A program made the position numbers and the translations under genes. The notes beneath the pieces are model-generated. The model did not search any database. It was not told the origin of the DNA and saw only the letters and a list, made by a program, of their open reading frames with translations. A stretch of 38,453 nt of DNA from Paenibacillus bovis (GTDB taxonomy: Bacteria > Bacillota > Bacilli > Bacillales > Bacillaceae_C), in the NCBI GenBank assembly GCA_007679095.1, contig VEFU01000044.1:1-38453 (forward strand), in the 5' to 3' direction. This document shows positions 307-14,325 of this stretch, piece after piece (the stretch's first letter is position 1; each line of letters begins with the position of its first letter).

Positions 307-381
307 TTTAATAAATAGGTAGAAATTTTGGAAGAAAATCCAAATATACTGAAATAAGAACTTAATAATGATAAAATGCGG

Positions 382-443
382 AAGCACCGCTAATATACGA
401 TGGGTTACGTACCTGCATCGTTTTATTAGTGGTGCTTTTTTTT
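382..443 (+). terminator. Long hairpin plus T-tract upstream of the tns operon
   Basis: AAGCACC-G-CTAATA-T-ACGATG (382-402) can pair with CATCGT-TT-TATTAG-T-GGTGCTT (416-437), giving about 19 pairs with short bulges and a loop of 13 bases. An uninterrupted run of T follows. This is an intrinsic terminator shape. As no gene precedes it in the window, it may block transcripts entering from outside the element, or it may end a gene or RNA that begins before the window. Confidence 0.7.
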
Positions 444-557: not shown

Positions 558-575
558 ACCCCCGAAAGTAGGGGT
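558..575 (+). promoter_or_regulatory. Hairpin covering the tniQ-1 ribosome binding site
   Basis: ACCCC (558-562) is complementary to GGGGT (571-575) across a loop of 8 bases (CGAAAGTA). The GGGG is the only Shine-Dalgarno-like sequence before the ATG at 585 (spacing 10). The stem would hide it, which may keep translation of the first transposition gene low. Confidence 0.35.
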
Positions 576-584
576 TAGAAAATT

Positions 585-1862
585 ATGGAAAGAAGTATTT
601 TATATAACATAGAACCTATAGGAAAAGGGACACCTTTAGTTGAATCCTTAACTAGCTATATAACAAGGTTAGCAGATGCCCACTGTGTTCTCACAGGAGA
701 TTTAATTTCGATGGTATATGCTCCTTTATTAAACAAGGAGTATTTAACGAGGATTTCAAGGCGTGGAGGTAATGGTTTTTTTGACTCTGCAATAGGTATT
801 AATGGTTTGGGAAAATTAGCACTTGAGTTTAGTGATTTAACTGAAAAATTTACTGGAAGATCAGATATAAGCTCTACTACCCTCCAAAATTGGTCAGTAA
901 CATTGCCAAACAGGGGATTATTAAAGACAACAAAATCATGGTGTCCTTATTGTTATGAACAATCTAGATTAAATGATGAGGTAATTTATGACCCATTAAT
1001 ATGGAATTTCCAACTTGTTAATTACTGTTTAAAACACAAAAAACCACTAGAAAATATTTGTGGGAATTGTAGTAACACAGTACCGGTAATCAATAGAAAA
1101 TCACACCCCGGATATTGTTCCAGATGCGAAGCTTGGTTGGGTAATACCACTTCAATGAATGAAGGAATCTTAAAGAATACAAATGAGTCCTTATCTGATA
1201 TTCAGTTTATAGGAGAATTGTTGGCTAATAATGATCTTCAGTTATCAAATAGAAATCCGACAAATTCACTAAAATACTATATTGATGAAGTTTTTGATAA
1301 ATCTCCTTCAAAAGCTGCTCAGAGTTTTAATATACCAAGGTCAACATTGATGATGTGGATAAATGGTAAACATCTACCTACTCTTAAATATTTATTAGTA
1401 ATTTGCAAGATACTTGGAATTTCTCTAATAGAGTTTCTACATACAAAAAATCCTCAAATAAAAATAGGTTCGACTAAAACCATAGAAACAGGGAGAAATA
1501 AACATGATCATAAAAAAATAAGAAGGATTTTAAATAAAGTGATTGAGACTAAACAACCAATATCAATTAGTGAATTAGCGATAATGATTGGTTGTGACCG
1601 CAGGTTACTATCAAGAATGTATGAAACAGAATGTAATCAAATCAAAGAAATTTACAATGATCACTTACAAGAAAAAAAAGAAGATAGGTTAATTACAAAA
1701 ACTAATCAACTTAAAGATGCTGTAAATCTATTAGTAAAACAAGGAGTTTACCCAAGCAGAAGACAAATAGAAGATATTTTAGGAACTGGATTCCTGAAAG
1801 AGAAAACAATGCAAGAAAACTGGAATGAATTAAAAAAGGAGTTGTTAACGAATGTCTATTAA
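585..1862 (+). CDS. tniQ: TniQ-family target-selection protein (first copy)
   Basis: This 425-residue protein belongs to the TniQ/TnsD family, whose members choose the target site of Tn7-like transposons and recruit TnsC. The N-terminus (residues 9-40) has the family opening, with IEPIGKGTP followed by ESLTSYITRLA. Two zinc sites are visible: C120, C123, C148, H151, and C159, C162, C178, C181. Residues 234-286 look like an XRE-like helix-turn-helix, and the C-terminal third is charged and probably helical. It is a clear paralogue of the protein at 6607-8112. Its stop overlaps the next start by 11 bases, so translation is probably coupled. Which site it recognises cannot be read from the sequence. 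Confidence 0.85.
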   Translation: MERSILYNIEPIGKGTPLVESLTSYITRLADAHCVLTGDLISMVYAPLLNKEYLTRISRRGGNGFFDSAIGINGLGKLALEFSDLTEKFTGRSDISSTTLQNWSVTLPNRGLLKTTKSWCPYCYEQSRLNDEVIYDPLIWNFQLVNYCLKHKKPLENICGNCSNTVPVINRKSHPGYCSRCEAWLGNTTSMNEGILKNTNESLSDIQFIGELLANNDLQLSNRNPTNSLKYYIDEVFDKSPSKAAQSFNIPRSTLMMWINGKHLPTLKYLLVICKILGISLIEFLHTKNPQIKIGSTKTIETGRNKHDHKKIRRILNKVIETKQPISISELAIMIGCDRRLLSRMYETECNQIKEIYNDHLQEKKEDRLITKTNQLKDAVNLLVKQGVYPSRRQIEDILGTGFLKEKTMQENWNELKKELLTNVY

Positions 1863-2706
1863 CGAATATCAAATCAATAAATTAAGAGGATCAACAAGAC
1901 CATTTGAGAAGGCAATTATTGAATATATTTGTCTGGATACTTTTGTGTATATTCCTAACAGAAAAACTCTTCTGAGCAGGCCATGGTTAACGATATTGTT
2001 AGATGATTACTCTAAGAAAGTATTAGCGTTTTATTTATCATTGAATGGTCCATCGTATATATCCAACATGATGGTGATAAGGGAATGCGTTAAAAGTCAC
2101 TCTCGACTCCCTGAAACCCTATTGATGAATAATGGGAAAGAATTTAAAAGCGATGAGTTTAATAATTTATTAGCTTTATTTGGAACTACAGTCCAATTTT
2201 ATCCAAGTCCTATCCGATTTGAATCTAATGATTTATCTGGCATTGTTAATAATTTCGTTAGGAATGAAATTGAACGTGAAGAGTCTTTTTGGTCCATGGG
2301 AAATTTGAAAAAGTCACTTTCTATGTTGCTTTATGAAGTATATGATCGAAAAAATCATCAAGCATTAGGAACGAGTCCAAGAGAAATTTTTCAATCCACA
2401 TCTTATCGGATAGGTAAATATGGCACAAGATTAATACGTTATGATAATGAATTCAAGTTGTTAACTTATCCAATAGTTGAACGTAAAGTTATCGAGGGAC
2501 GAGGGATTAAAAACAATAATTTATATTATTGGACTATAGAATTTCTCCAACCAACATTTAATGGGAAAAAGGTAAAAGTTAAATTTGACCCCGTAGATTT
2601 AGACATTGCATTTGTTTGCATAAATGGCAGTTGGAAAAACCTTGATAGAACCAGCAATTTTATTGAACCGAGGAAAAAAGTAAGGAGTATCAATATAAAT
2701 GATTAA
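1852..2706 (+). CDS. Catalytically inactive TnsB-like protein
   Basis: This 284-residue protein matches only the RNase-H-like integrase core and following beta-barrel of the TnsB part of the next gene. Shared blocks include RPWLT-L-D-YS--VLAFYL, LRECVK, LYEVYD, IRYD and a GRGIK-NN-YY segment. All three DDE positions are changed. The first Asp (HIDHT in the active copy) is Glu24, the second (VDGGKDF) is Asn93, and the Glu is Leu128 or Ser129 depending on one gap. About 20 residues after the third motif are missing, as are the N-terminal DNA-binding region and the C-terminal tail. The frame is intact, has a good AGGAG site, and overlaps its neighbours by 11 and 8 bases. That suggests a retained accessory role rather than a decaying copy, but the role is unknown. 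Confidence 0.8.
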   Translation: MSINEYQINKLRGSTRPFEKAIIEYICLDTFVYIPNRKTLLSRPWLTILLDDYSKKVLAFYLSLNGPSYISNMMVIRECVKSHSRLPETLLMNNGKEFKSDEFNNLLALFGTTVQFYPSPIRFESNDLSGIVNNFVRNEIEREESFWSMGNLKKSLSMLLYEVYDRKNHQALGTSPREIFQSTSYRIGKYGTRLIRYDNEFKLLTYPIVERKVIEGRGIKNNNLYYWTIEFLQPTFNGKKVKVKFDPVDLDIAFVCINGSWKNLDRTSNFIEPRKKVRSININD

Positions 2707-5428
2707 GGACTTTGATTCATTATGCAATAAAAAAGGAATTAGTGATGAGAATAAAAACTATATCAATAATAGTATTAGAAATGCTGAACCGGCTCGTAAG
2801 GTTCGAAGCGGAGCGGGAAATGTTCCAGGTTTTTACTCTAGTAAAAAGATGGGGCTAACTATTCAGTTTGAAAGCCACACACTTGAATTGTGTGCAATCT
2901 ATTTAATGGAGTTTGATAAAGGCGTTTATGAGTATTATGACCAACCTGAAAGCTTCACCATCAATTATAAATTAAATGGTAAAAATCGAGGATATAGATA
3001 TACCGCTGACTTCTTTGTGATATCGGAAGATTTTATTGGTTGGGAAGAGTGGAAAACAGAAAAAGAACTATCTAAGATGATTGAAGAATCACCAGAACGT
3101 TATATATTAGATGAAAATGGACAGTGGAGATGTCCACCTGCCGAGGAGTTTGCAAGGAATAAGGGGTTATCATTTAGAATACGTTGTTCTAATGAAATTG
3201 ACTGGAATCTACAAAATAATATTCGTTTTTTAGAAGACTATCTTTTAGAAGAAAATCCTACAGTTTCTTTGCCTAGTCGGAATATTATTCTTAATTATGT
3301 TAAATCCAAACCTATGATTACTTTGGAAGATTTGTTATCTATTGAAGATACTGCATATACCGCAGATGATATTTACAAACTAATTATTCTGGGTGAAATG
3401 TATGTAGATCTCGAGCGTTTTCTTATTATAAATTTTGATAAGTTCCCTTTATTTATAAATAAAGAAACGGCCGATGCTATCCTGTATGTTAAGGAATCAA
3501 AAAACAAAGAAGTAAATGAAAAAACTGAAAACGAAGTAACTTTGGAAATTGGTAAAGAAATACTTTGGAATGGAAACCCGTGGACAGTTATTAATATTGG
3601 TGAGACTGAGATTTCTCTTTTAAATGAAACTGAAAAAATCATTCCATTACCAGTAAATGCATTTGAAGAATTAATAAAAATGGGTAGTATTAAGTCTTTT
3701 GAGAATGAACTATCAAAAAGTGATGAAGAATCTGAACTGATGGAAATCATAAGATCAGCAAGTCCCGAAACTCTCGCAGAAGCAAATGAGAAGTACAATA
3801 AATATAGAATGTATATAGATGGAGAAATTGTAGATGTTCCTTTGAGAACACTTAGATATTGGAAACGCAAAGTATTAAATGCTGAAAAAAAATACGGAAG
3901 TGGGTTTGTAGGGCTAATTCCGGAAAATCACAATAAAGGGAATTATACACGTAGAATAAGTAAAGATGTGATTGAATTAATGGATGAACATATTACAAAT
4001 CACTATGAAAATAATAAGCAAAGAAATAAGTCTTCAGTATATAGATTATTTAGGAATGCATGTTTAGAGAAAGGGTTTGAACCTCCAAGTAATAAAACCT
4101 TCTTTCAAGAAATTGAGAACCGTTCAAGCTACGAACAAGATATAAAGCGAAGAGGTCCTAAAGCAGCCTATAATAAAGAACCTTTATATTTGGAATTATC
4201 GCTTACTACACCAAGACATGGTACTAGGCCTTTTGAAATTGTGCATATAGACCATACAGAGCTTGATATTCAACTTATTTGTTCAAAGACCCAGAAAAAA
4301 CTAGGAAGGCCATGGTTAACTTTATTAGTGGATGCATACTCACGAAGAGTATTAGCTTTCTACTTAACATTTGATCCCCCATCTTATAAGTCATGTATGA
4401 ATACTCTTAGGGAATGTGTTAAGAAATATTCGCGATTTCCAAAAACAATAGTAGTAGATGGCGGAAAAGATTTTCAAAGTACTTATTTTGATACTTTATT
4501 AGCAACATATAACTGTCATAAAAAAATTAGACCAGGTGCAAAGCCGAAGTTTGGATCTGTTTGTGAGAGGCTTTTTGGTACAACAAATACGATGTTTATT
4601 AACAATTTAGCAGGTAACACACAATTATCAAAGCTAGTTCGACAAATGACAAAAGAGTTTGATCCGCGCAATCTGGCTATATGGAACTTAGAAATATTAT
4701 ATGAATTTTTAGCCAAGTGGCTTTATGAGGTCTATGATCAAGAAGAACATACTACTCTTAATCAAAGTCCTCGTGATGCCTATCAACAAAATATAAGAAA
4801 AACAGGTGAAAGAAAGCAAACATACATTAGATATGATACGAATTTTGAAATGATGACACTACCAACAACACAAAAAGGAACTGCAAAAGTTCAGCCCGGA
4901 AAGGGAATTAAGATTAATAATTGCTATTATAATTCGTATGAATTGAGCAATCCTGTTGTTGAAGGAAAACAAATCCCAGTCCGTTATGATCCATTTGATT
5001 ATAGTAAAGCATATGCTTATGTTGGGAATTACTGGGTACCTCTTCATTCCCAGTATGAGCTGGAGTTTGAAGGTAAGTCAGAGAAAGAAATTAAACTTAT
5101 TACAGCGGAAATTAGGAAGAGAAAGAGGGAAACTCAAAAACAAAAAATAAATGGTGTTTCAGCTTCAGAAATTGTGGATTTCTTAAAAAGTGCCGAAGCT
5201 CATGAACTTTTAGAGACTCAGAGACTTAAGGATCAAGCACTTAGGAGGTCATTGAGAGTAATTAGTGGGGGAAAAAGCACAGCTGCTTCCAGTATAAACA
5301 CCGAAAAAGTGTTAAGGAGTAATGAAAATAAAAGTTTTGAGGAGAAAGATTCTTCTAAGAAAATGGAACATGTAAAATACGACGGTGAAGATTTTACTGA
5401 ATTTAAAAAGTATGGGGAGTTTTTCTAA
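2699..5428 (+). CDS. tnsAB: TnsA-TnsB fusion transposase
   Basis: One 909-residue polypeptide joins the two halves of a heteromeric Tn7-like transposase. Residues about 50-180 are a TnsA-type restriction-endonuclease fold with candidate catalytic residues E63, D104 and E117-x-K119; TnsA cuts the 5' ends of the element. After a linker and a predicted helical DNA-binding region (about 350-480), the integrase core carries D518 (HIDHT), D587 (VDGGKDF) and E623 (CERLFG). The last two are separated by 35 residues as in classic DDE enzymes; TnsB cuts and joins the 3' ends. A barrel domain and a charged tail follow; in Tn7 the TnsB tail contacts TnsC. The stop overlaps the tnsC ATG (TAATG). TnsA and TnsB together should give cut-and-paste transposition. 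Confidence 0.9.
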   Translation: MIKDFDSLCNKKGISDENKNYINNSIRNAEPARKVRSGAGNVPGFYSSKKMGLTIQFESHTLELCAIYLMEFDKGVYEYYDQPESFTINYKLNGKNRGYRYTADFFVISEDFIGWEEWKTEKELSKMIEESPERYILDENGQWRCPPAEEFARNKGLSFRIRCSNEIDWNLQNNIRFLEDYLLEENPTVSLPSRNIILNYVKSKPMITLEDLLSIEDTAYTADDIYKLIILGEMYVDLERFLIINFDKFPLFINKETADAILYVKESKNKEVNEKTENEVTLEIGKEILWNGNPWTVINIGETEISLLNETEKIIPLPVNAFEELIKMGSIKSFENELSKSDEESELMEIIRSASPETLAEANEKYNKYRMYIDGEIVDVPLRTLRYWKRKVLNAEKKYGSGFVGLIPENHNKGNYTRRISKDVIELMDEHITNHYENNKQRNKSSVYRLFRNACLEKGFEPPSNKTFFQEIENRSSYEQDIKRRGPKAAYNKEPLYLELSLTTPRHGTRPFEIVHIDHTELDIQLICSKTQKKLGRPWLTLLVDAYSRRVLAFYLTFDPPSYKSCMNTLRECVKKYSRFPKTIVVDGGKDFQSTYFDTLLATYNCHKKIRPGAKPKFGSVCERLFGTTNTMFINNLAGNTQLSKLVRQMTKEFDPRNLAIWNLEILYEFLAKWLYEVYDQEEHTTLNQSPRDAYQQNIRKTGERKQTYIRYDTNFEMMTLPTTQKGTAKVQPGKGIKINNCYYNSYELSNPVVEGKQIPVRYDPFDYSKAYAYVGNYWVPLHSQYELEFEGKSEKEIKLITAEIRKRKRETQKQKINGVSASEIVDFLKSAEAHELLETQRLKDQALRRSLRVISGGKSTAASSINTEKVLRSNENKSFEEKDSSKKMEHVKYDGEDFTEFKKYGEFF

Positions 5429-6534
5429 TGGATCTAAGTTACCCAAAAGAAATATTATTTCAATCTATTGATGAAAGAATAAACTTTTTCGAAAAAAGGA
5501 CTATGGCGCACCCTAAATTAGTTGATTCGTATGAAGATTTAATGGGAAAAGTGGATGTCTTAAGTGGAAAAGGTAAAGTTTTACTGGTATATGGTCCAAG
5601 TGGTGTAGGTAAGTCTACATTGTTAAAAAAAGTAAGAAGTGAGTTTATAACTAAATTTTACGATGATATGTTAGAGGATAAAGGACTTATTCCAGTTTTA
5701 TCTTTAGAGGCATTTGCTCCCGAGGATGGAAAGTTTGATTGGATTGACTTTTATACTGAAGCACTAAGAAATTTAGATGAGATCTTAATTGAGGAAAAAA
5801 GATTACCATTACATGAAATAGGTGTTACAGTCCCAAACGAAAAAACAAAAAGAAAATTGAGACATTCTTTGATTAATGCAGTTAAATATAGAAAAGTTAA
5901 GGTTATATTAATCGATGAAGCACAACATATGACAAAGGTTGCGAATTCAAAGGGATTAAGGAATCATATGGATGCCATTAAATCGTTAGCATCAATATTT
6001 GGGATCCCAATCATACTATTTGGAACTTATGAATTATTGAGTTTTAGAAATATTAACGGACAATTGGGGAGAAGAACAACAGAGATTCATTTTTCTAGAT
6101 ACAACTCGGAGAAAGTTGATGAAATTAAAGCATTTAAATATGTCCTATTGTATTTCCAAAAGTCATATCCCTTACTTGAAGAACCTGACCTTATTAATGA
6201 GTGGAAGTATTTCTATAAGCACACTATAGGATGTGTTGGAACTCTCAAGGATTGGTTAAATGATACTTTTAACTCAAAAATGAAGGATAATATAGAAACA
6301 AAAACCCTTGTCTTAAGTGACTTTAAGAGATTTGAACCAACAATTGACCAAGCATATGTCATGGCTTCTGAAATTACAAGCGGTGAAACACAGCTTATTG
6401 AACAAAAAGAAGAAAAAGAAAATAAACTTAATAGTTGGTTAAAGCTAGACGAGAAAGAGGAAAACAGCGAACCAAAAAGTATTAATAAGCGTCCTGGAGA
6501 AAGAAAACCGAAACGTGATAAAACAGGTACTTAA
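5428..6534 (+). CDS. tnsC: TnsC AAA+ ATPase, transposition regulator
   Basis: This 368-residue AAA+ protein has a Walker A motif, GPSGVGKST, at residues 56-64 and a Walker B, ILIDEAQ, with D163 and E164. TnsC-type ATPases bridge the TniQ target selector and the transposase, and they mediate target immunity. A conserved region with FGTYEL and a sensor-like RRTTEIHF follows Walker B. The C-terminal 60 residues are lysine- and glutamate-rich and look disordered. The gene shares one base with the tnsAB stop (TAATG), the strongest coupling in the operon. A 72-base gap separates it from tniQ-2. Confidence 0.9.
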   Translation: MDLSYPKEILFQSIDERINFFEKRTMAHPKLVDSYEDLMGKVDVLSGKGKVLLVYGPSGVGKSTLLKKVRSEFITKFYDDMLEDKGLIPVLSLEAFAPEDGKFDWIDFYTEALRNLDEILIEEKRLPLHEIGVTVPNEKTKRKLRHSLINAVKYRKVKVILIDEAQHMTKVANSKGLRNHMDAIKSLASIFGIPIILFGTYELLSFRNINGQLGRRTTEIHFSRYNSEKVDEIKAFKYVLLYFQKSYPLLEEPDLINEWKYFYKHTIGCVGTLKDWLNDTFNSKMKDNIETKTLVLSDFKRFEPTIDQAYVMASEITSGETQLIEQKEEKENKLNSWLKLDEKEENSEPKSINKRPGERKPKRDKTGT

Positions 6535-6606: not shown

Positions 6607-8112
6607 TTGAATGATATGAAATTTGATAACCTATTTTTGGACAAACTTAAAATCCCCCCCAGGAGTACACTTTATAATTTAGAGCCAATTGGTCTTGGGA
6701 CTCCATATGCGGAAAGTCTCACCAGTTATATTTCTAGATTGTCACAAAGTCATAATTTGAAAGTAACCACGTTAGTATGTAAAACTTTTACTACATTAGT
6801 AAATAAAGAATATATTGAGCAAGCATTTCAGACTGGTGGTTTTGGTTCTTCAATAAGATATATCAATGGAAATAGCCCTGTGAGTCTAGAGTATGTTTCT
6901 GCATTGGAAGAGTTAACTACAAGAAAAGACCTACTTTATTTAACTATGAATTCTTGGTCTGGGTTATTTTCAAAAAATGTAATAGGTGATACTAGAAAAT
7001 GGTGTCCAATATGTTTAGAAGAATTAAAAAGTAATGGGAAAGAAGTTTATGAGCCATTAATATGGTACATTAAAGGTATTGATACATGCGATAGACACCA
7101 AGTAAAACTTGAAGACAAATGTACAAATTGCGGCAAGAAATTGCAGTTCCTACACAATAATTTAATTGTTGGACACTGCCAATATTGTTCAGTATGGTTA
7201 GGGAGAGATAATCAAAAAAATTCTACTAACTTATCAGAATATGAAATATTTCTTTTTAATACCTTTAAACCATTAATAGAAAATGCTCTAGGTCTACAAT
7301 ATATACCAACAAAATGGAAAATTGGACATGTTTTGAATAAAGTTATGAAAGAAAACAATTTTATCAGTGTAACTCAATTTGCTAAATATTTTGATATCCA
7401 TCAAACCATGTTATCTAATTGGATTAATAACAAAGCAAAACCCTCAATTGAATCAATGTTTAAAATTAGCAATAAGCTTAATCTATCAATCTATGAGTTG
7501 TTTTATTGCAACCAAAATTGGAGTAACATTAATATTCAAGGTAAAAAAAGCTTTAAACGAAGTTTATTGTCAGTAAAAGAAATAGAAAATGAGTTAAGAA
7601 AGGCGATTAATGATAAACGAAATATTAGTTTGCATAAACTATCCAATGAAAAAAACTTTTCTTATATGACTGCTAAAAGAAATTTTCCTAGTTTGTGTGA
7701 GAGGTTGAAGGCTGCATATAAAACTAATAATAAAGTAGAAGAAATTCTACGCAAAGATGAAATTGATAAGAAATTAATGGCAACATTAGAGTTAGAGCCT
7801 CCGATAAGTTTTATGCAGTTTTCAATTAATACAGGGATACCTATTGTTAATGCAAAAAGATATTCCCCAGAACTGAGTAAAAAAGTAATAGATAGATATT
7901 TAAAATTTCGTGCAGAAGAGAAAGCCAAAAGATTTAGGGTTATTGAGGAAGAGATTAGGAATGTTATATTTGAATTAGATAGAAATGGAATCTATCCTGG
8001 AATAAAAACTGTTCAAAAAAAGTTATCTGATCCAAATTATTTTATTAAAAAGGAATTTAGAACAGTCTGGGAAATTGAATTAGAAAAATTAGGATATAAA
8101 AATAAAGTTTGA
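6607..8112 (+). CDS. tniQ: TniQ-family target-selection protein (second copy)
   Basis: This 501-residue TniQ/TnsD-family protein is a paralogue of the protein at 585-1862. Residues 25-60 repeat the NLEPIGLGTP and ESLTSYISRL opening. Zinc ligands are C133, C136, C161, H164, and C172, C175, C191, C194. A helix-turn-helix lies at about 252-298. The C-terminal 200 residues are longer than in copy one and contain two further predicted helix-turn-helix-like segments, as in TnsD proteins that read a fixed attachment site. The TTG start is chosen because GGAG lies 7 bases upstream; the next in-frame ATG is three codons later. Two selectors would allow two target pathways, which is inference. Confidence 0.85.
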   Translation: MNDMKFDNLFLDKLKIPPRSTLYNLEPIGLGTPYAESLTSYISRLSQSHNLKVTTLVCKTFTTLVNKEYIEQAFQTGGFGSSIRYINGNSPVSLEYVSALEELTTRKDLLYLTMNSWSGLFSKNVIGDTRKWCPICLEELKSNGKEVYEPLIWYIKGIDTCDRHQVKLEDKCTNCGKKLQFLHNNLIVGHCQYCSVWLGRDNQKNSTNLSEYEIFLFNTFKPLIENALGLQYIPTKWKIGHVLNKVMKENNFISVTQFAKYFDIHQTMLSNWINNKAKPSIESMFKISNKLNLSIYELFYCNQNWSNINIQGKKSFKRSLLSVKEIENELRKAINDKRNISLHKLSNEKNFSYMTAKRNFPSLCERLKAAYKTNNKVEEILRKDEIDKKLMATLELEPPISFMQFSINTGIPIVNAKRYSPELSKKVIDRYLKFRAEEKAKRFRVIEEEIRNVIFELDRNGIYPGIKTVQKKLSDPNYFIKKEFRTVWEIELEKLGYKNKV

Positions 8113-8271: not shown

Positions 8272-8447
8272 ATAATATTTTAGAGTAATCATTGAACCGT
8301 AATATTGCCGGAAGTTTTAATTTGAAGCATAAGGTAGCCGAGAGTATAAGGAAATTTTATATAGTAATTTAAAAAAGGTAAAAAAATAACACTTTTAACA
8401 TCTATTGTTTTAAAAATATATTTAAAAACATTGTAATATCAATTGAT

Positions 8448-8488
8448 GGCAAGGATATGCTTCAAAGTTAGGCAAGGATATATTTCAA
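8448..8488. repeat. Two 18-bp direct repeats
   Basis: GGCAAGGATATGCTTCAA (8448-8465) and GGCAAGGATATATTTCAA (8471-8488) differ at two positions and start 23 bp apart. They lie between the tns terminator and the 3' end of the LAGLIDADG gene. They could be binding sites near a transposon end or endonuclease-related; neither is shown. Confidence 0.6.
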
Positions 8489-8500
8489 GTCACAATCAAA

Positions 8501-8908
8501 CTATAATTCGAAAAAAACTTCTTCAAACTTAATTTTTCTCATTAATGATTCTGGCGTATATTTGCCATTTCTCGGTGTTACTAATTCATAGTTTTGGATG
8601 ATCCATTGTGCACGCTCTCTTTTTTGATTAACTCGAAGAAAAGGTGCAATATTTTTTAATATATTTAAGACACATTCTTTTTTCTTTATATTTAATGTAT
8701 ATGAATTTTTATGTCGCTGAGGGTTATAGTTCTTTTTATTGCTAATATAGCCTCCTGTCAATGTAATAAGATAATGTAATAATTCCAAATCTGTAGAAGA
8801 AATCGTAATACATGGTCTTCTATGTTCATTTTCATGCATTCTTGTCAACGTGATTGTTCCTTCACCATCCACTATCCCTGCTAAATAAGCAGCTTCCCAT
8901 TTTTCGAT
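8501..8908 (-). CDS. Single-motif LAGLIDADG endonuclease, start codon missing or non-standard
   Basis: Reading upstream of the first GTG (8872) in the same frame gives IEKWEAAYLAGIVDGEG, a clear LAGLIDADG motif. The true protein therefore begins near 8908, about 135 residues long. Enzymes of this family with one motif act as homodimers and cut long DNA sites, usually to spread introns, inteins or themselves. No ATG, GTG or TTG lies between the in-frame stop (8924-8926) and the motif. An ATC at 8908 sits at correct spacing from GGGAGAG, so it is either an unusual start or a mutated one. A GTG start at 8872 would remove half the motif. No intron or intein is visible around it. Confidence 0.65.
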   Translation of the reverse strand: MEKWEAAYLAGIVDGEGTITLTRMHENEHRRPCITISSTDLELLHYLITLTGGYISNKKNYNPQRHKNSYTLNIKKKECVLNILKNIAPFLRVNQKRERAQWIIQNYELVTPRNGKYTPESLMRKIKFEEVFFEL

Positions 8909-10996: not shown

Positions 10997-11036
10997 AAAA
11001 TCCTGTCACTTACTAAATCCGGAGTGGCAGGATTTT
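10997..11036 (+). terminator. Terminator of the subtilase-like gene
   Basis: AAAATCCTGTCACT pairs with AGTGGCAGGATTTT around a loop of 12 bases, with one G-U pair. It begins 10 bases after the stop codon at 10987. The rest of the gap up to 11294 shows no coding frame or recognised element. Confidence 0.75.
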
Positions 11037-11294
11037 GATGTTGGATGTATTAGTAATTCCCTTAATCTAGTTATTTTCGCTACTTTTCTAACGAAAACAC
11101 TCCTTTGAAGTAGATAGCCTGCAATCTTATTCGCTTTTTGTTTTAACCCTTCTTCCTTATTGATAAATAGTCATTCTTTTTCTCAATAAAGATAATTCGA
11201 CAAAAGTGGCGTTTTCCCTTCTTCTATTGCAGGTTATTCTTATGGAACAGCGAATATAGTTATATAAGTCAAAAATCCCAGGTGAGGTGTGAAT

Positions 11295-11783
11295 ATGGCG
11301 ATTCGAACTGCTGCAAGAGCGGTAATAATTAAGGACGGCTCCTTACTAGTTTTAAGAAGAACGGGTGTACAAGGTGAGTTTTATGTTCTACCAGGTGGTG
11401 GACAAGAGCATGGCGAAAGCATTTTTGACACCCTTAAAAGAGAAGTGCTGGAAGAGGTTAGTTTACATGTTGAAATGGAACAACTTTTATTTATAAATGA
11501 ATTTATTGCAAAGAGAGACTCGTTATTTCCAGAAGAGGACGGAGATATACATCAAATTGATTTTACCTTCTTATGTAAAATTACATCGGAAAAAGAAGCT
11601 GAAGTCGGAGAAACACCGGATGTATTTCAAATTGGAATAGAATGGATTCGATTATCAGAGATTACCGATTACAATAAGCATCCTAAAGACGATGTGAACT
11701 TCATCATGGGAGCACCTACAAGGGATATGTTGGCAAAATGGATTCAAGATCGGGAGAATTTTAAAACACCGATATTTATTTAG
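11295..11783 (+). CDS. Nudix hydrolase
   Basis: This protein of about 162 residues carries the Nudix box G-x5-E-x7-REVLEEV from residue 35, in the form GQEHGESIFDTLKREVLEEV. Nudix enzymes split nucleoside diphosphates linked to another group. The substrate cannot be inferred; sequences of this type are often annotated as MutT-like. The ATG at 11295 is preferred over a GTG at 11289 because AGGTGAGG lies 7 bases upstream of it. It is the first of four closely spaced genes (to 13480) that alternate Nudix and HAD families and probably form one operon. Confidence 0.85.
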   Translation: MAIRTAARAVIIKDGSLLVLRRTGVQGEFYVLPGGGQEHGESIFDTLKREVLEEVSLHVEMEQLLFINEFIAKRDSLFPEEDGDIHQIDFTFLCKITSEKEAEVGETPDVFQIGIEWIRLSEITDYNKHPKDDVNFIMGAPTRDMLAKWIQDRENFKTPIFI

Positions 11784-11798
11784 TTGGAGGGATATGCA

Positions 11799-12350
11799 AT
11801 GAACATCCAAGCTATTTTCATAGATAGGGACGGGACAATCGGTGGAGGAAAGGAAGTTCTATATCCGGGAGTGTTTCAGCTTTTTCCACATGTGGCTAAC
11901 TCTATACAGCAATTAATGAATGCAGGTGTTTTAATTTGTTCTTTTACAAATCAACCAGGAATCTCTCGAGGAGAAGCTACAGTAGACAGTTTTTTCGAAG
12001 AACTTATTAACTTTGAATTTGATAAAATTTATCTTTGTCCACATCAACATACAGAAGGTTGTCCATGTAGAAAACCTTCTTCTGGAATGCTACAAAAAGC
12101 CGCAAAGGAAAATAATTTGGATTTGCGGAAATGTGTAGTAGTCGGTGATCGCTGGACGGACTTAGTTGCAGCGGACGAAGTTGGATGTATAAAAATACTA
12201 GTGAAAACCGGCAGCGGTGAAGAGGCTTATCAAAAGTATATTCATAATGAGTATTTTGGTCGCTGGGCAGAAGTGACTCCTGATTTTGTAGCAAAAGATT
12301 TCAATGAGGCGGTTAGGTGGATAATCAATATAGGTAATGCTCATGAATGA
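11799..12350 (+). CDS. HAD-IIIA phosphatase (HisB-N/GmhB-like)
   Basis: This HAD hydrolase of 183 residues has the nucleophile motif FIDRDGTI, a threonine motif SFTNQPG, and the lysine/aspartate motifs RKPSSGM and VVGDRWTDL. A cysteine-histidine loop, CPHQHTEGCPC, just before the lysine is the zinc-binding signature of histidinol-phosphatase and heptose-bisphosphatase (GmhB) relatives. It therefore likely removes phosphate from a small sugar or amino-alcohol phosphate. The start is the ATG at 11799, 7 bases after TTGGAGG. It begins 15 bases after the first Nudix gene and precedes the second. Confidence 0.85.
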   Translation: MNIQAIFIDRDGTIGGGKEVLYPGVFQLFPHVANSIQQLMNAGVLICSFTNQPGISRGEATVDSFFEELINFEFDKIYLCPHQHTEGCPCRKPSSGMLQKAAKENNLDLRKCVVVGDRWTDLVAADEVGCIKILVKTGSGEEAYQKYIHNEYFGRWAEVTPDFVAKDFNEAVRWIINIGNAHE

Positions 12351-12366
12351 GAAAGGATAGTGAAAA

Positions 12367-12813
12367 ATGGCTGGTTATATCCAAGAACTACGAAAATTAA
12401 TCGGGAGTAGACCAATCATTCTAATTGGATCGACAATAATTGTGATGAATGATGAAAAGGAAATTTTATTTCAACATCGATCTGATACTAAAGAATGGGG
12501 CTTACCAGGTGGGGCAATGGAATTAGGGGAAAGCTTGGAAGAAACAGCTGCACGCGAGTTATATGAAGAAGCAGGATTAAGAGCGGAGCATTATAAGTTC
12601 ATCGATATTTTGTCAGGAGCAAATCTTTATTATCAATATCCGAATGGTGATGAAATATTTAATGTAATATGTGTATACATTGCAGAAGGGGTAAGTGGTG
12701 AATTAGCAATAAATGATGATGAAGGCTTGGCTCTAAAGTATTTCTCTCTACATAACTTACCAAAAAATATGGATGAAAGAGCGAGATTGATTTTAGAGAA
12801 GCACTTTATCTAA
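12367..12813 (+). CDS. Nudix hydrolase
   Basis: This protein of 148 residues has a textbook Nudix box at about 44-66 (GGAMELGESLEETAARELYE, then EAG). The N-terminal SRPIILIGSTIIVMND strand and QHRSDTKEWGLPGG segment match a common Bacillus Nudix subgroup of unknown substrate. It is separated by 16 bases from both neighbours. Its pairing with HAD phosphatases fits stepwise clean-up of a nucleotide-type phosphate ester, first splitting the diphosphate and then removing the phosphate; this is inference. Confidence 0.85.
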   Translation: MAGYIQELRKLIGSRPIILIGSTIIVMNDEKEILFQHRSDTKEWGLPGGAMELGESLEETAARELYEEAGLRAEHYKFIDILSGANLYYQYPNGDEIFNVICVYIAEGVSGELAINDDEGLALKYFSLHNLPKNMDERARLILEKHFI

Positions 12814-12829
12814 ACTTGGAGGTTGAAAA

Positions 12830-13480
12830 ATGACACTAGCAGTCATTTTTGATATGGACGGAACACTATTTCAAACAAATAAAATATTAGAGCTATCACT
12901 AGAAGATACATTTAACTATTTACGAAAACAAAATAAATGGGATACCGTAACTCCTATTAATACATACCGAGAAATAATGGGGGCGCCTCTACCAATAGTT
13001 TGGGAAACTTTATTGCCTAATCATTCTCTGGATGTAAGAAAAGAAACCGATACCTACTTCCTTCATAGCTTAATAGAAAATATACAATATGGAAAAGGTG
13101 CATTATATTCGAATGCAAAAGAAACTTTCGAATTTTTGAAGGAAAATGATTATGAAATCTATATTGCAAGTAATGGGTTGATAAAATACTTAAAAGCAAT
13201 TGTAAATTACTACCATCTCGACGATTGGGTAACTGAGACATTCAGTATTGAACAAATTAATACTCTGAATAAATCAGACTTGGTTCAATTCATCATAAAG
13301 AATTATAAGATTACGAATGGTGCTGTAGTTGGAGATCGGCTATCAGATATACTAGCAGCTAAAAATAATGGTTTACTTTCAATTGGATGTAATTTTGATT
13401 TTGCTAGAGAAGATGAGCTTGATCAAGCAGATTTTGTGATAGATGACTTACTACAAATAACATCGATTCTAGTAAAATAA
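12830..13480 (+). CDS. HAD-superfamily phosphatase (phosphoglycolate-phosphatase-like)
   Basis: This 216-residue HAD hydrolase with a helical cap starts FDMDGTLFQTNK (nucleophile and acid Asp near the N-terminus). It has a SNG threonine-type motif (IYIASNG) and a final GDRLSDILAAK motif. The general family covers phosphoglycolate phosphatase and beta-phosphoglucomutase relatives. The cap sequence does not identify the substrate. An AGGTTG site precedes the ATG. It closes the Nudix-HAD-Nudix-HAD run. The 230 bases that follow hold no recognised gene. Confidence 0.85.
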   Translation: MTLAVIFDMDGTLFQTNKILELSLEDTFNYLRKQNKWDTVTPINTYREIMGAPLPIVWETLLPNHSLDVRKETDTYFLHSLIENIQYGKGALYSNAKETFEFLKENDYEIYIASNGLIKYLKAIVNYYHLDDWVTETFSIEQINTLNKSDLVQFIIKNYKITNGAVVGDRLSDILAAKNNGLLSIGCNFDFAREDELDQADFVIDDLLQITSILVK

Positions 13481-13710
13481 AGAAATAACAATTAGTGGGC
13501 ATTGATATTCGAGCTGTATTTCTAGACCATGATATCACAAAGGCTGGTAATAAACTATTGGGTACCAAAAGAATTGATACAAGTGCAATGTAGAAATAAT
13601 CATCCGAACTAGTGCATATCCTAAACAGAAATGATTCCATTGATTCATTTCTTTGGTTCCTTCATTTGTTAATATTAAGTAGTTAAACTGAAGAAGAAAG
13701 GATGATACAT

Positions 13711-14325
13711 ATGTTCAAAAAAATCGCTGCAGATGCTCTTGGGTTATCAGATATTGGAAAAATTATTTCGCCTGCTGATTATGATAAAACCGATGCTGAT
13801 GATTACGTAATGCATGAGGATAATGAAAAAATTTATTTCCTAATTAAAACAAAAGCAGATGAGTATTGCTTTACGAATTTAGCATTAATTCATGTAGATG
13901 GAGATAGTGCTATTTCGTCGAAAAGAACATTGAAGCGCTATACGTATTCTCAGCATAAGATTTCTAATGTGTTACTGGAAACAGCCGGGAAGATTGATAT
14001 GGATGTAGAGATAAAATTTAAGTTTGGCAATCAACAATTTGATATTGATGTTAGGAAGGATCAAATTGAACAACTGAAGGACTTATATAAATCACTCCTT
14101 CGTATTGCGGAAATTACGCATCATAATGAAATTTATACAAATATGGCAACACAAAGTCTCGATAAAGCGGTCAGTGTATTACAAAATTCGAGAACAGACG
14201 ATAGTCAACTAGCGGATACGTATAAAGGGCTAACGGAGTTTGGTTTTGAATGGTTAGCTTCGACACGTGAGAAATATCATACTTCTGATTTTGGTAGTGT
14301 TTTTGAAAAATATATTAATAATTAG
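13711..14325 (+). CDS. YvbH-like bacterial PH-domain protein
   Basis: This 204-residue protein resembles Bacillus subtilis YvbH. It has an N-terminal PH-like domain (residues about 1-125, MFKKIAADALGLSDIGKII onwards, strands such as KIYFLIKTKADEYCFTN and a conserved SSKRTLKRYTYS segment). A helical C-terminal oligomerisation region follows. The biological role is not established; YvbH-type PH domains form rings. There is no signal peptide. The ATG at 13711 is chosen because GAAAGGA lies 8 bases upstream. It is a single gene ending in a terminator. Confidence 0.75.
   Translation: MFKKIAADALGLSDIGKIISPADYDKTDADDYVMHEDNEKIYFLIKTKADEYCFTNLALIHVDGDSAISSKRTLKRYTYSQHKISNVLLETAGKIDMDVEIKFKFGNQQFDIDVRKDQIEQLKDLYKSLLRIAEITHHNEIYTNMATQSLDKAVSVLQNSRTDDSQLADTYKGLTEFGFEWLASTREKYHTSDFGSVFEKYINN

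Follow-up and report, generated by a model that had tools for sequence, protein, structure and literature searches.

A TnsB-core gene between tniQ1 and tnsAB

The stretch analysed here, called the window, is the 38,453-nt contig VEFU01000044.1 of Paenibacillus bovis (assembly GCA_007679095.1). Open reading frames and Pfam matches showed that its first 8.5 kb are filled by an operon on the plus strand: tniQ1, a catalytically broken, 'dead' paralogue of the TnsB transposase core, tnsAB, tnsC and tniQ2. TnsA, TnsB, TnsC and TniQ/TnsD genes are thus all present together, which identifies the operon as Tn7-like. tniQ1 (585..1862) encodes a TniQ/TnsD-like protein of 425 amino acids (Pfam TniQ, E 6.8e-12) and overlaps the paralogue (1852..2706) by 11 nt; this in turn overlaps by 8 nt the tnsAB fusion (2699..5428, 909 amino acids), in which the Asp-Asp-Glu (DDE) triad D518, D587 and E623 is intact. 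tnsC (5428..6534) codes for an AAA ATPase of 368 amino acids, TniB-like according to Pfam, and tniQ2 (6607..8112) for a second TniQ protein of 501 amino acids (E 5.3e-14). Tn7-like elements have TGT...ACA ends with repeated TnsB sites. Such an end, the left one, was found at 8447..8494 on the minus strand, with TnsB-site repeats of the GGCAAGGATATGCTTCA type and a terminal TGTGACTTGAA, and matching ends were found in relatives. Because the left end sits at 8494, the dead paralogue is located inside the element, the bulk of whose cargo falls outside the window. In a profile search the closest solved sequence to the window's TnsAB was that of PmcCAST (9bw1_M, E 4.8e-147). PmcCAST (PDB 9bw1) is a TnsAB-fusion Tn7-like system with two TniQ/TnsD proteins and has the same tnsAB, tnsC and two tniQ genes. 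Compared with TnsAB-fusion transposons the dead TnsB-core gene between tniQ1 and tnsAB is extra, and the open-licence literature searched (listings, and text of PMC10293859 and PMC8649781) contained no inactive TnsB paralogue.

The paralogue is a frame of 284 amino acids with no internal stop, and an AAAGGAG ribosome site ends 10 nt ahead of its ATG. The protein was 35% identical to its own TnsAB across 282 residues (E 4e-54). Of its two Pfam matches, rve (E 2.5e-6) missed the curated cut-off and Mu-transpos_C (E 8.6e-6) passed it. The protein sets in at the RNase-H domain and stops about 20 residues past the β-barrel; the scaffold and the barrel are retained, and the N-terminal DNA-binding domains, the TnsA part and the C-terminal tail with the TnsC hook are lost. 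In all this a sequence-only reading of the window, which had described an intact frame with its own ribosome site, overlapping both neighbours and reduced to integrase core and barrel, proved accurate. Structure prediction likewise supported a TnsB/MuA-type fold of RNase-H domain and barrel. The best structural matches of the model were TnsB chains from solved transpososomes, short ones in which order is limited to the DDE domain and the barrel region; these chains are taken to be non-catalytic structural subunits. The homologous protein of Halalkalibacter akibai, predicted without an alignment, reached a predicted local distance difference test score of only 33.9 and this model was not used.

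Opposite D518 and D587 of TnsAB the alignments placed Glu24 and Asn93, as the sequence-only reading had proposed. Its third pair, Leu128/Ser129 for Glu623, was not firm; depending on the alignment this position was a gap (in two) or Asn126/Asp127 (in another). The window copy does not have the triad of an active TnsB, i.e. it carries Glu24, Asn93 and a third place without Glu, whereas D, D and E filled these columns in 34 of 34 intact TnsAB proteins compared. Between the second triad column and Trp662 it has 54 residues, TnsAB 75; part of the region of the catalytic Glu is lost.

Occurrence in relatives and origin of the copy

Whole-genome searches covered 34 genomes of the family, 397 of the order, and 43 and 41 of two further families; in addition, 398 genomes of the class were searched with a profile built from the dead paralogues (these groups overlap), and a scan of genome contigs supplied 32 loci. 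Mostly, TnsAB itself or distant transposases were matched (family, 3 of 34 genomes, two of these distant; order, 37 of 397). Short copies besides TnsAB were detected in the window's genome (G000), G062, G388, G065 and G354 in the order search and in G448 and G456 in the second of the further families (41 genomes), and the class-wide profile search yielded none beyond G000 and G062 in its 398 genomes. Viral contigs yielded no relative. A plasmid search returned 800 records, the first at 36.4% identity; of the 20 plasmid matches listed, 19 lay under genes named TnsA-domain, integrase or Mu/transposase and one under none. From these loci 37 distinct elements were read that have tniQ1 as well as tnsAB, although genes are broken in some. 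They comprised 19 loci including the window and 25 of the 32 scan loci, seven being the same places; the other seven scan loci have no tniQ1 upstream of tnsAB. In five of the 37 a paralogue frame was identified by phmmer in the gap between tniQ1 and tnsAB, and a relic in one more. These are all six elements of the window's TnsAB clade (support 99/93), within which TnsAB is 67 to 77% identical to the window's. No frame matched in the gap of the 31 others. Relics were sought in 12 of those 31; 11 gaps were searched, one being too short, and no match was better than E 0.022.

Within the clade the state of the gene varied. It is intact in the window, in H. akibai (L057) and in H. okhensis (L079), the latter two with 271 amino acids each. 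In Peribacillus acanthi (L055/L044) it is broken by a frame change and a TAG, and in H. urbisdiaboli (L058/L045) the core is deleted and the barrel alone is left. At an E of 0.01 Pfam reported Mu-transpos_C but not rve for the H. akibai protein, and nothing for the 124-residue frame of H. urbisdiaboli. Paucisalibacillus (L056) has a relic of 48 codons. Its score against the window copy was 62, which none of 1000 shuffles attained; against the other dead copies 0, 1 and 4 of 1000 shuffles did. Since the relic also matches TnsAB (0 of 1000), it can be assigned to a TnsB core, but not to the dead clade in particular. The three relatives with a decayed paralogue keep tniQ1, tnsAB, tnsC and tniQ2 open. 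Thus a retained, catalytically broken TnsB paralogue does occur at the same place in other Bacillales elements, but the claim of a stable fifth component failed, as the gene is broken, barrel-only or a relic in three of five clade relatives.

The triad is broken in each dead copy, yet by different residues, and only the window copy has replaced all three, as had been claimed. In the Halalkalibacter copies Cys stands in for the first Asp and the Glu is kept; at the second position, following an insertion of 2 residues, an Asp lines up. The Peribacillus remnant has kept the first Asp, has Cys at the second and has lost the third place. In DDE enzymes it is established that Cys or Asn at a single triad position suffices to stop catalysis.

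Trees of the TnsB core were calculated from 34 intact TnsAB proteins and the short copies, with 40 rows, or 39 without a copy from L043. The L058 barrel and the L056 relic (too short), duplicate loci and split or partial TnsAB proteins (L069, L071, L073, L076, L077, L078, L081, L082, L084, L086) were left out; in L069 (12154-15175) and L071 (11965-13881) tnsAB is split by insertions of 2 to 3 kb. The dead copies of the window, L055, L057 and L079 formed a single clade (support 100/98 and 100/99), i.e. they have one origin. Its neighbours in the tree were the six elements' own TnsAB proteins, a position that is not firm (83/72 with the L043 copy, 81/62 without). A recent duplication in the window lineage was rejected by the approximately unbiased test (p 1.65e-5). 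Because of this, and because it groups with the copies at the same place, the window copy is not a recent duplicate. An origin inside the L037-L050 subfamily was disfavoured (p 0.02). Two further short cores were noted. L043 (6917-7795) has a broken TnsB core upstream of tniQ1, which contains stops but has D, D and E in the triad columns; its very long branch fell with the dead copies (94/96), a tentative placement. L038 (6658-7665, minus strand) has a separately arisen core of 335 amino acids between tnsAB and tnsC, with intact DDE and 67% identity to its own TnsAB; a shared origin with the dead copies was rejected (approximately unbiased test, p 1.2e-4).

Selection and possible function

Selection was well measurable in one pair. 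Between H. akibai and H. okhensis the ratio of nonsynonymous to synonymous rates (dN/dS) of the paralogue was 0.33 (bootstrap confidence interval 0.19-0.64), compared to 0.52 for tniQ1, 0.12 for the almost identical tnsAB, 0.067 for tnsC and 0.31 for tniQ2. Against a neutral simulation the excess of third-position changes (P 0.0016) and the shortage of nonsynonymous codons (P 0.01) were significant. The window copy is 41.6% identical to that of H. okhensis, dS is near saturation and the frame is open; we argue, though not from a simulation, that a frame is unlikely to stay open under drift alone over the distance to the Halalkalibacter copies (about 41% identity). The gene has been retained for long as an open frame in two lineages. 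Of the signs by which the sequence-only reading would have recognized a decaying duplicate, frameshifts in close relatives were found; absence from all relatives and a neutral dN/dS were not. Purifying selection in the Halalkalibacter pair together with decay in three of six elements indicates that selection maintained the gene over much of its past, although it is dispensable. As a side observation, some 3 kb that take in tnsAB and a portion of tnsC (around 11000-14000) are near-identical in L057 and L079 and the flanking operon parts are several percent apart, apparently as a result of recent recombination.

Selection preserved the paralogue in some lineages, whereas in others it decayed, which makes a regulatory role in transposition more likely than that of a required part. 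The reading which we rank first, though tentatively, is that an old partial tnsB duplicate lost catalysis and persists in some lineages as an accessory regulator. In transpososomes of TnsB and MuA the structural subunits contribute a non-catalytic DDE domain and barrel, much like the window copy; there one full-length polypeptide plays both roles, whereas here a separate, shorter gene exists. The dead protein may dock at the usual seat of the inactive DDE domain and barrel, in the position of a structural TnsB subunit, on the surface of TnsC that contacts a TnsB barrel, or both. Without DNA-binding domains, last helix and TnsC hook a normal subunit would not be completed, and the simplest outcome would then be titration of TnsAB or TnsC, which would lower or time transposition. 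Such a brake occupying a transpososome interface is conceivable at somewhat less than even chances, and is still the most likely reading. The overlaps with the end of tniQ1 and the start of tnsAB in the window would couple the amount of protein to both. The Tn5 inhibitor protein is a transposase without the N-terminal DNA-binding part, made from the transposase gene itself; the window copy also has no DNA-binding part and differs in being a separate, diverged gene.

Several points speak against a brake. The docking interfaces were taken from homologous structures, and the match to the short TnsB chains may partly reflect how AlphaFold places two domains. A brake should aid persistence, which sits badly with at least two losses of the gene, in relatives whose other operon genes stay open. 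The selection test comprises one species pair with 40 substitutions, and absence of stops alone was not significant (P 0.095). Dead copies evolve far faster than TnsAB (window branch 1.11 versus 0.11), and the window copy retains only two of eight conserved columns of the first strand; it could be relaxing.

Next in rank are two explanations which we consider unlikely to a similar extent. The dead copy might be a specialised structural subunit that replaces one or both non-catalytic TnsB protomers in a hetero-tetramer with TnsAB. The structural matches of the predicted model fit this, and two of four TnsB protomers are non-catalytic in known complexes, as far as described in the available portions of PMC9527255 and PMC13228271. 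However, the copy has neither helix IIIα, the tetramer stabiliser of ShCAST in the accessible part of PMC9371665, nor the DNA-binding domains by which a subunit is positioned at the second end site, and it is lost in the three relatives mentioned. A broader notion, that the jobs of TnsB are split, TnsAB catalysing and a dedicated inactive DDE-barrel protein filling or blocking the structural position so that tetramer composition controls transposition, is doubtful. Alternatively, the gene is a decaying duplicate that may or may not have had a role in the past, its window copy now drifting towards loss. The state of three of five relatives, the long window branch and a triad lost differently in each lineage are in line with decay; drift should, however, have brought stops at 41.6% identity to H. 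okhensis and near-saturated dS, and the Halalkalibacter pair is under purifying selection.

Quite improbable is an adaptor for target choice or immunity acting with TniQ1, to which the paralogue is coupled by gene overlap. The precedent is TnsF of Tn6022, likewise a recombination enzyme that has lost its activity but stays in a Tn7-like operon, where it serves as a target selector (PMC10293859, available in part). TnsF is a tyrosine recombinase, the window copy a DDE paralogue, and elements with no gene (G206, G162, G116) or only a relic (L056) lie at the same place 3' of ssrA. Finally, an inert protein whose open frame is a translational bridge setting tnsAB expression would explain the overlaps with both neighbours in the window, but in Halalkalibacter the paralogue ends before the start of tnsAB, without overlap, and selection there acts on the amino acids; we give it very little credence. 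If the dead protein binds the transpososome, its gene would give natural access to the restraint of Tn7-like and CRISPR-associated transposases, and a dominant modulator of such genome-insertion tools could be derived from it. In any case this is a phylogenetically traced example of a transposase duplicate selectively kept after loss of its active site.

Insertion site, ends and operon surroundings

The six clade elements lie 3' of ssrA, the gene of transfer-messenger RNA (tmRNA); for the window's this is deduced across contigs. Rfam identified tmRNA for L055, L057, L058 (via L146), L056 (via L148) and the window's genome (via L145), and for L079 it was read by eye. The paralogue-free elements of G206, G162 and G116 are also 3' of ssrA, judged by eye from the tmRNA 3' end; ARAGORN found no gene in these stretches, perhaps owing to an insert. 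A requirement of the paralogue for targeting ssrA was therefore rejected. TnsAB-fusion transposons with two TniQ/TnsD proteins, such as PmcCAST and the dual TniQ-TnsD loci of PMC10293859, also use a target next to an RNA gene, a transfer RNA there and tmRNA in the window clade. The parts of the open-licence literature searched contained no description of Tn7-like elements at tmRNA; part of PMC10121019 mentions unspecified transposons at the Escherichia coli tmRNA locus. In several hosts an insert of about 300 nt (L145, 1111-1433; L057, 8025-8330), looking like a group I intron, seems to interrupt ssrA close to its 3' end; Rfam reported no intron in these stretches.

Six of seven end pairs had matching 5-bp flanks (G448, G388, G162, G829, G206 and G062, the last with its two ends on different contigs and the 5-mer TTTTT). 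At the two ends found in the window's genome (G000:C121:55432 and window 8494) the 5-mers, TTTTT and ATCAA, did not match, which could point to two elements or to a rearrangement. With the right end on another contig and an unmatched 5-mer, both ends only presumably belong to the same element.

Upstream of tniQ1 two plus-strand hairpins were read by eye, a terminator-like one with a T run (378..440), similar in five related elements, and a CCCC-GAAAG-GGGG hairpin directly ahead of the start (558..575), similar in five related elements and weaker in L058. An Rfam scan of positions 1-1000 gave nothing but a chance match. The region 378-585 is a possible control of operon expression, and the second hairpin may act on translation. 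Abutting the left end is a LAGLIDADG-like reading frame (8501-8872, minus strand; Pfam E 0.0014, below the cut-off), and by eye a similar one ends beside the left ends of the G206 and G162 elements.
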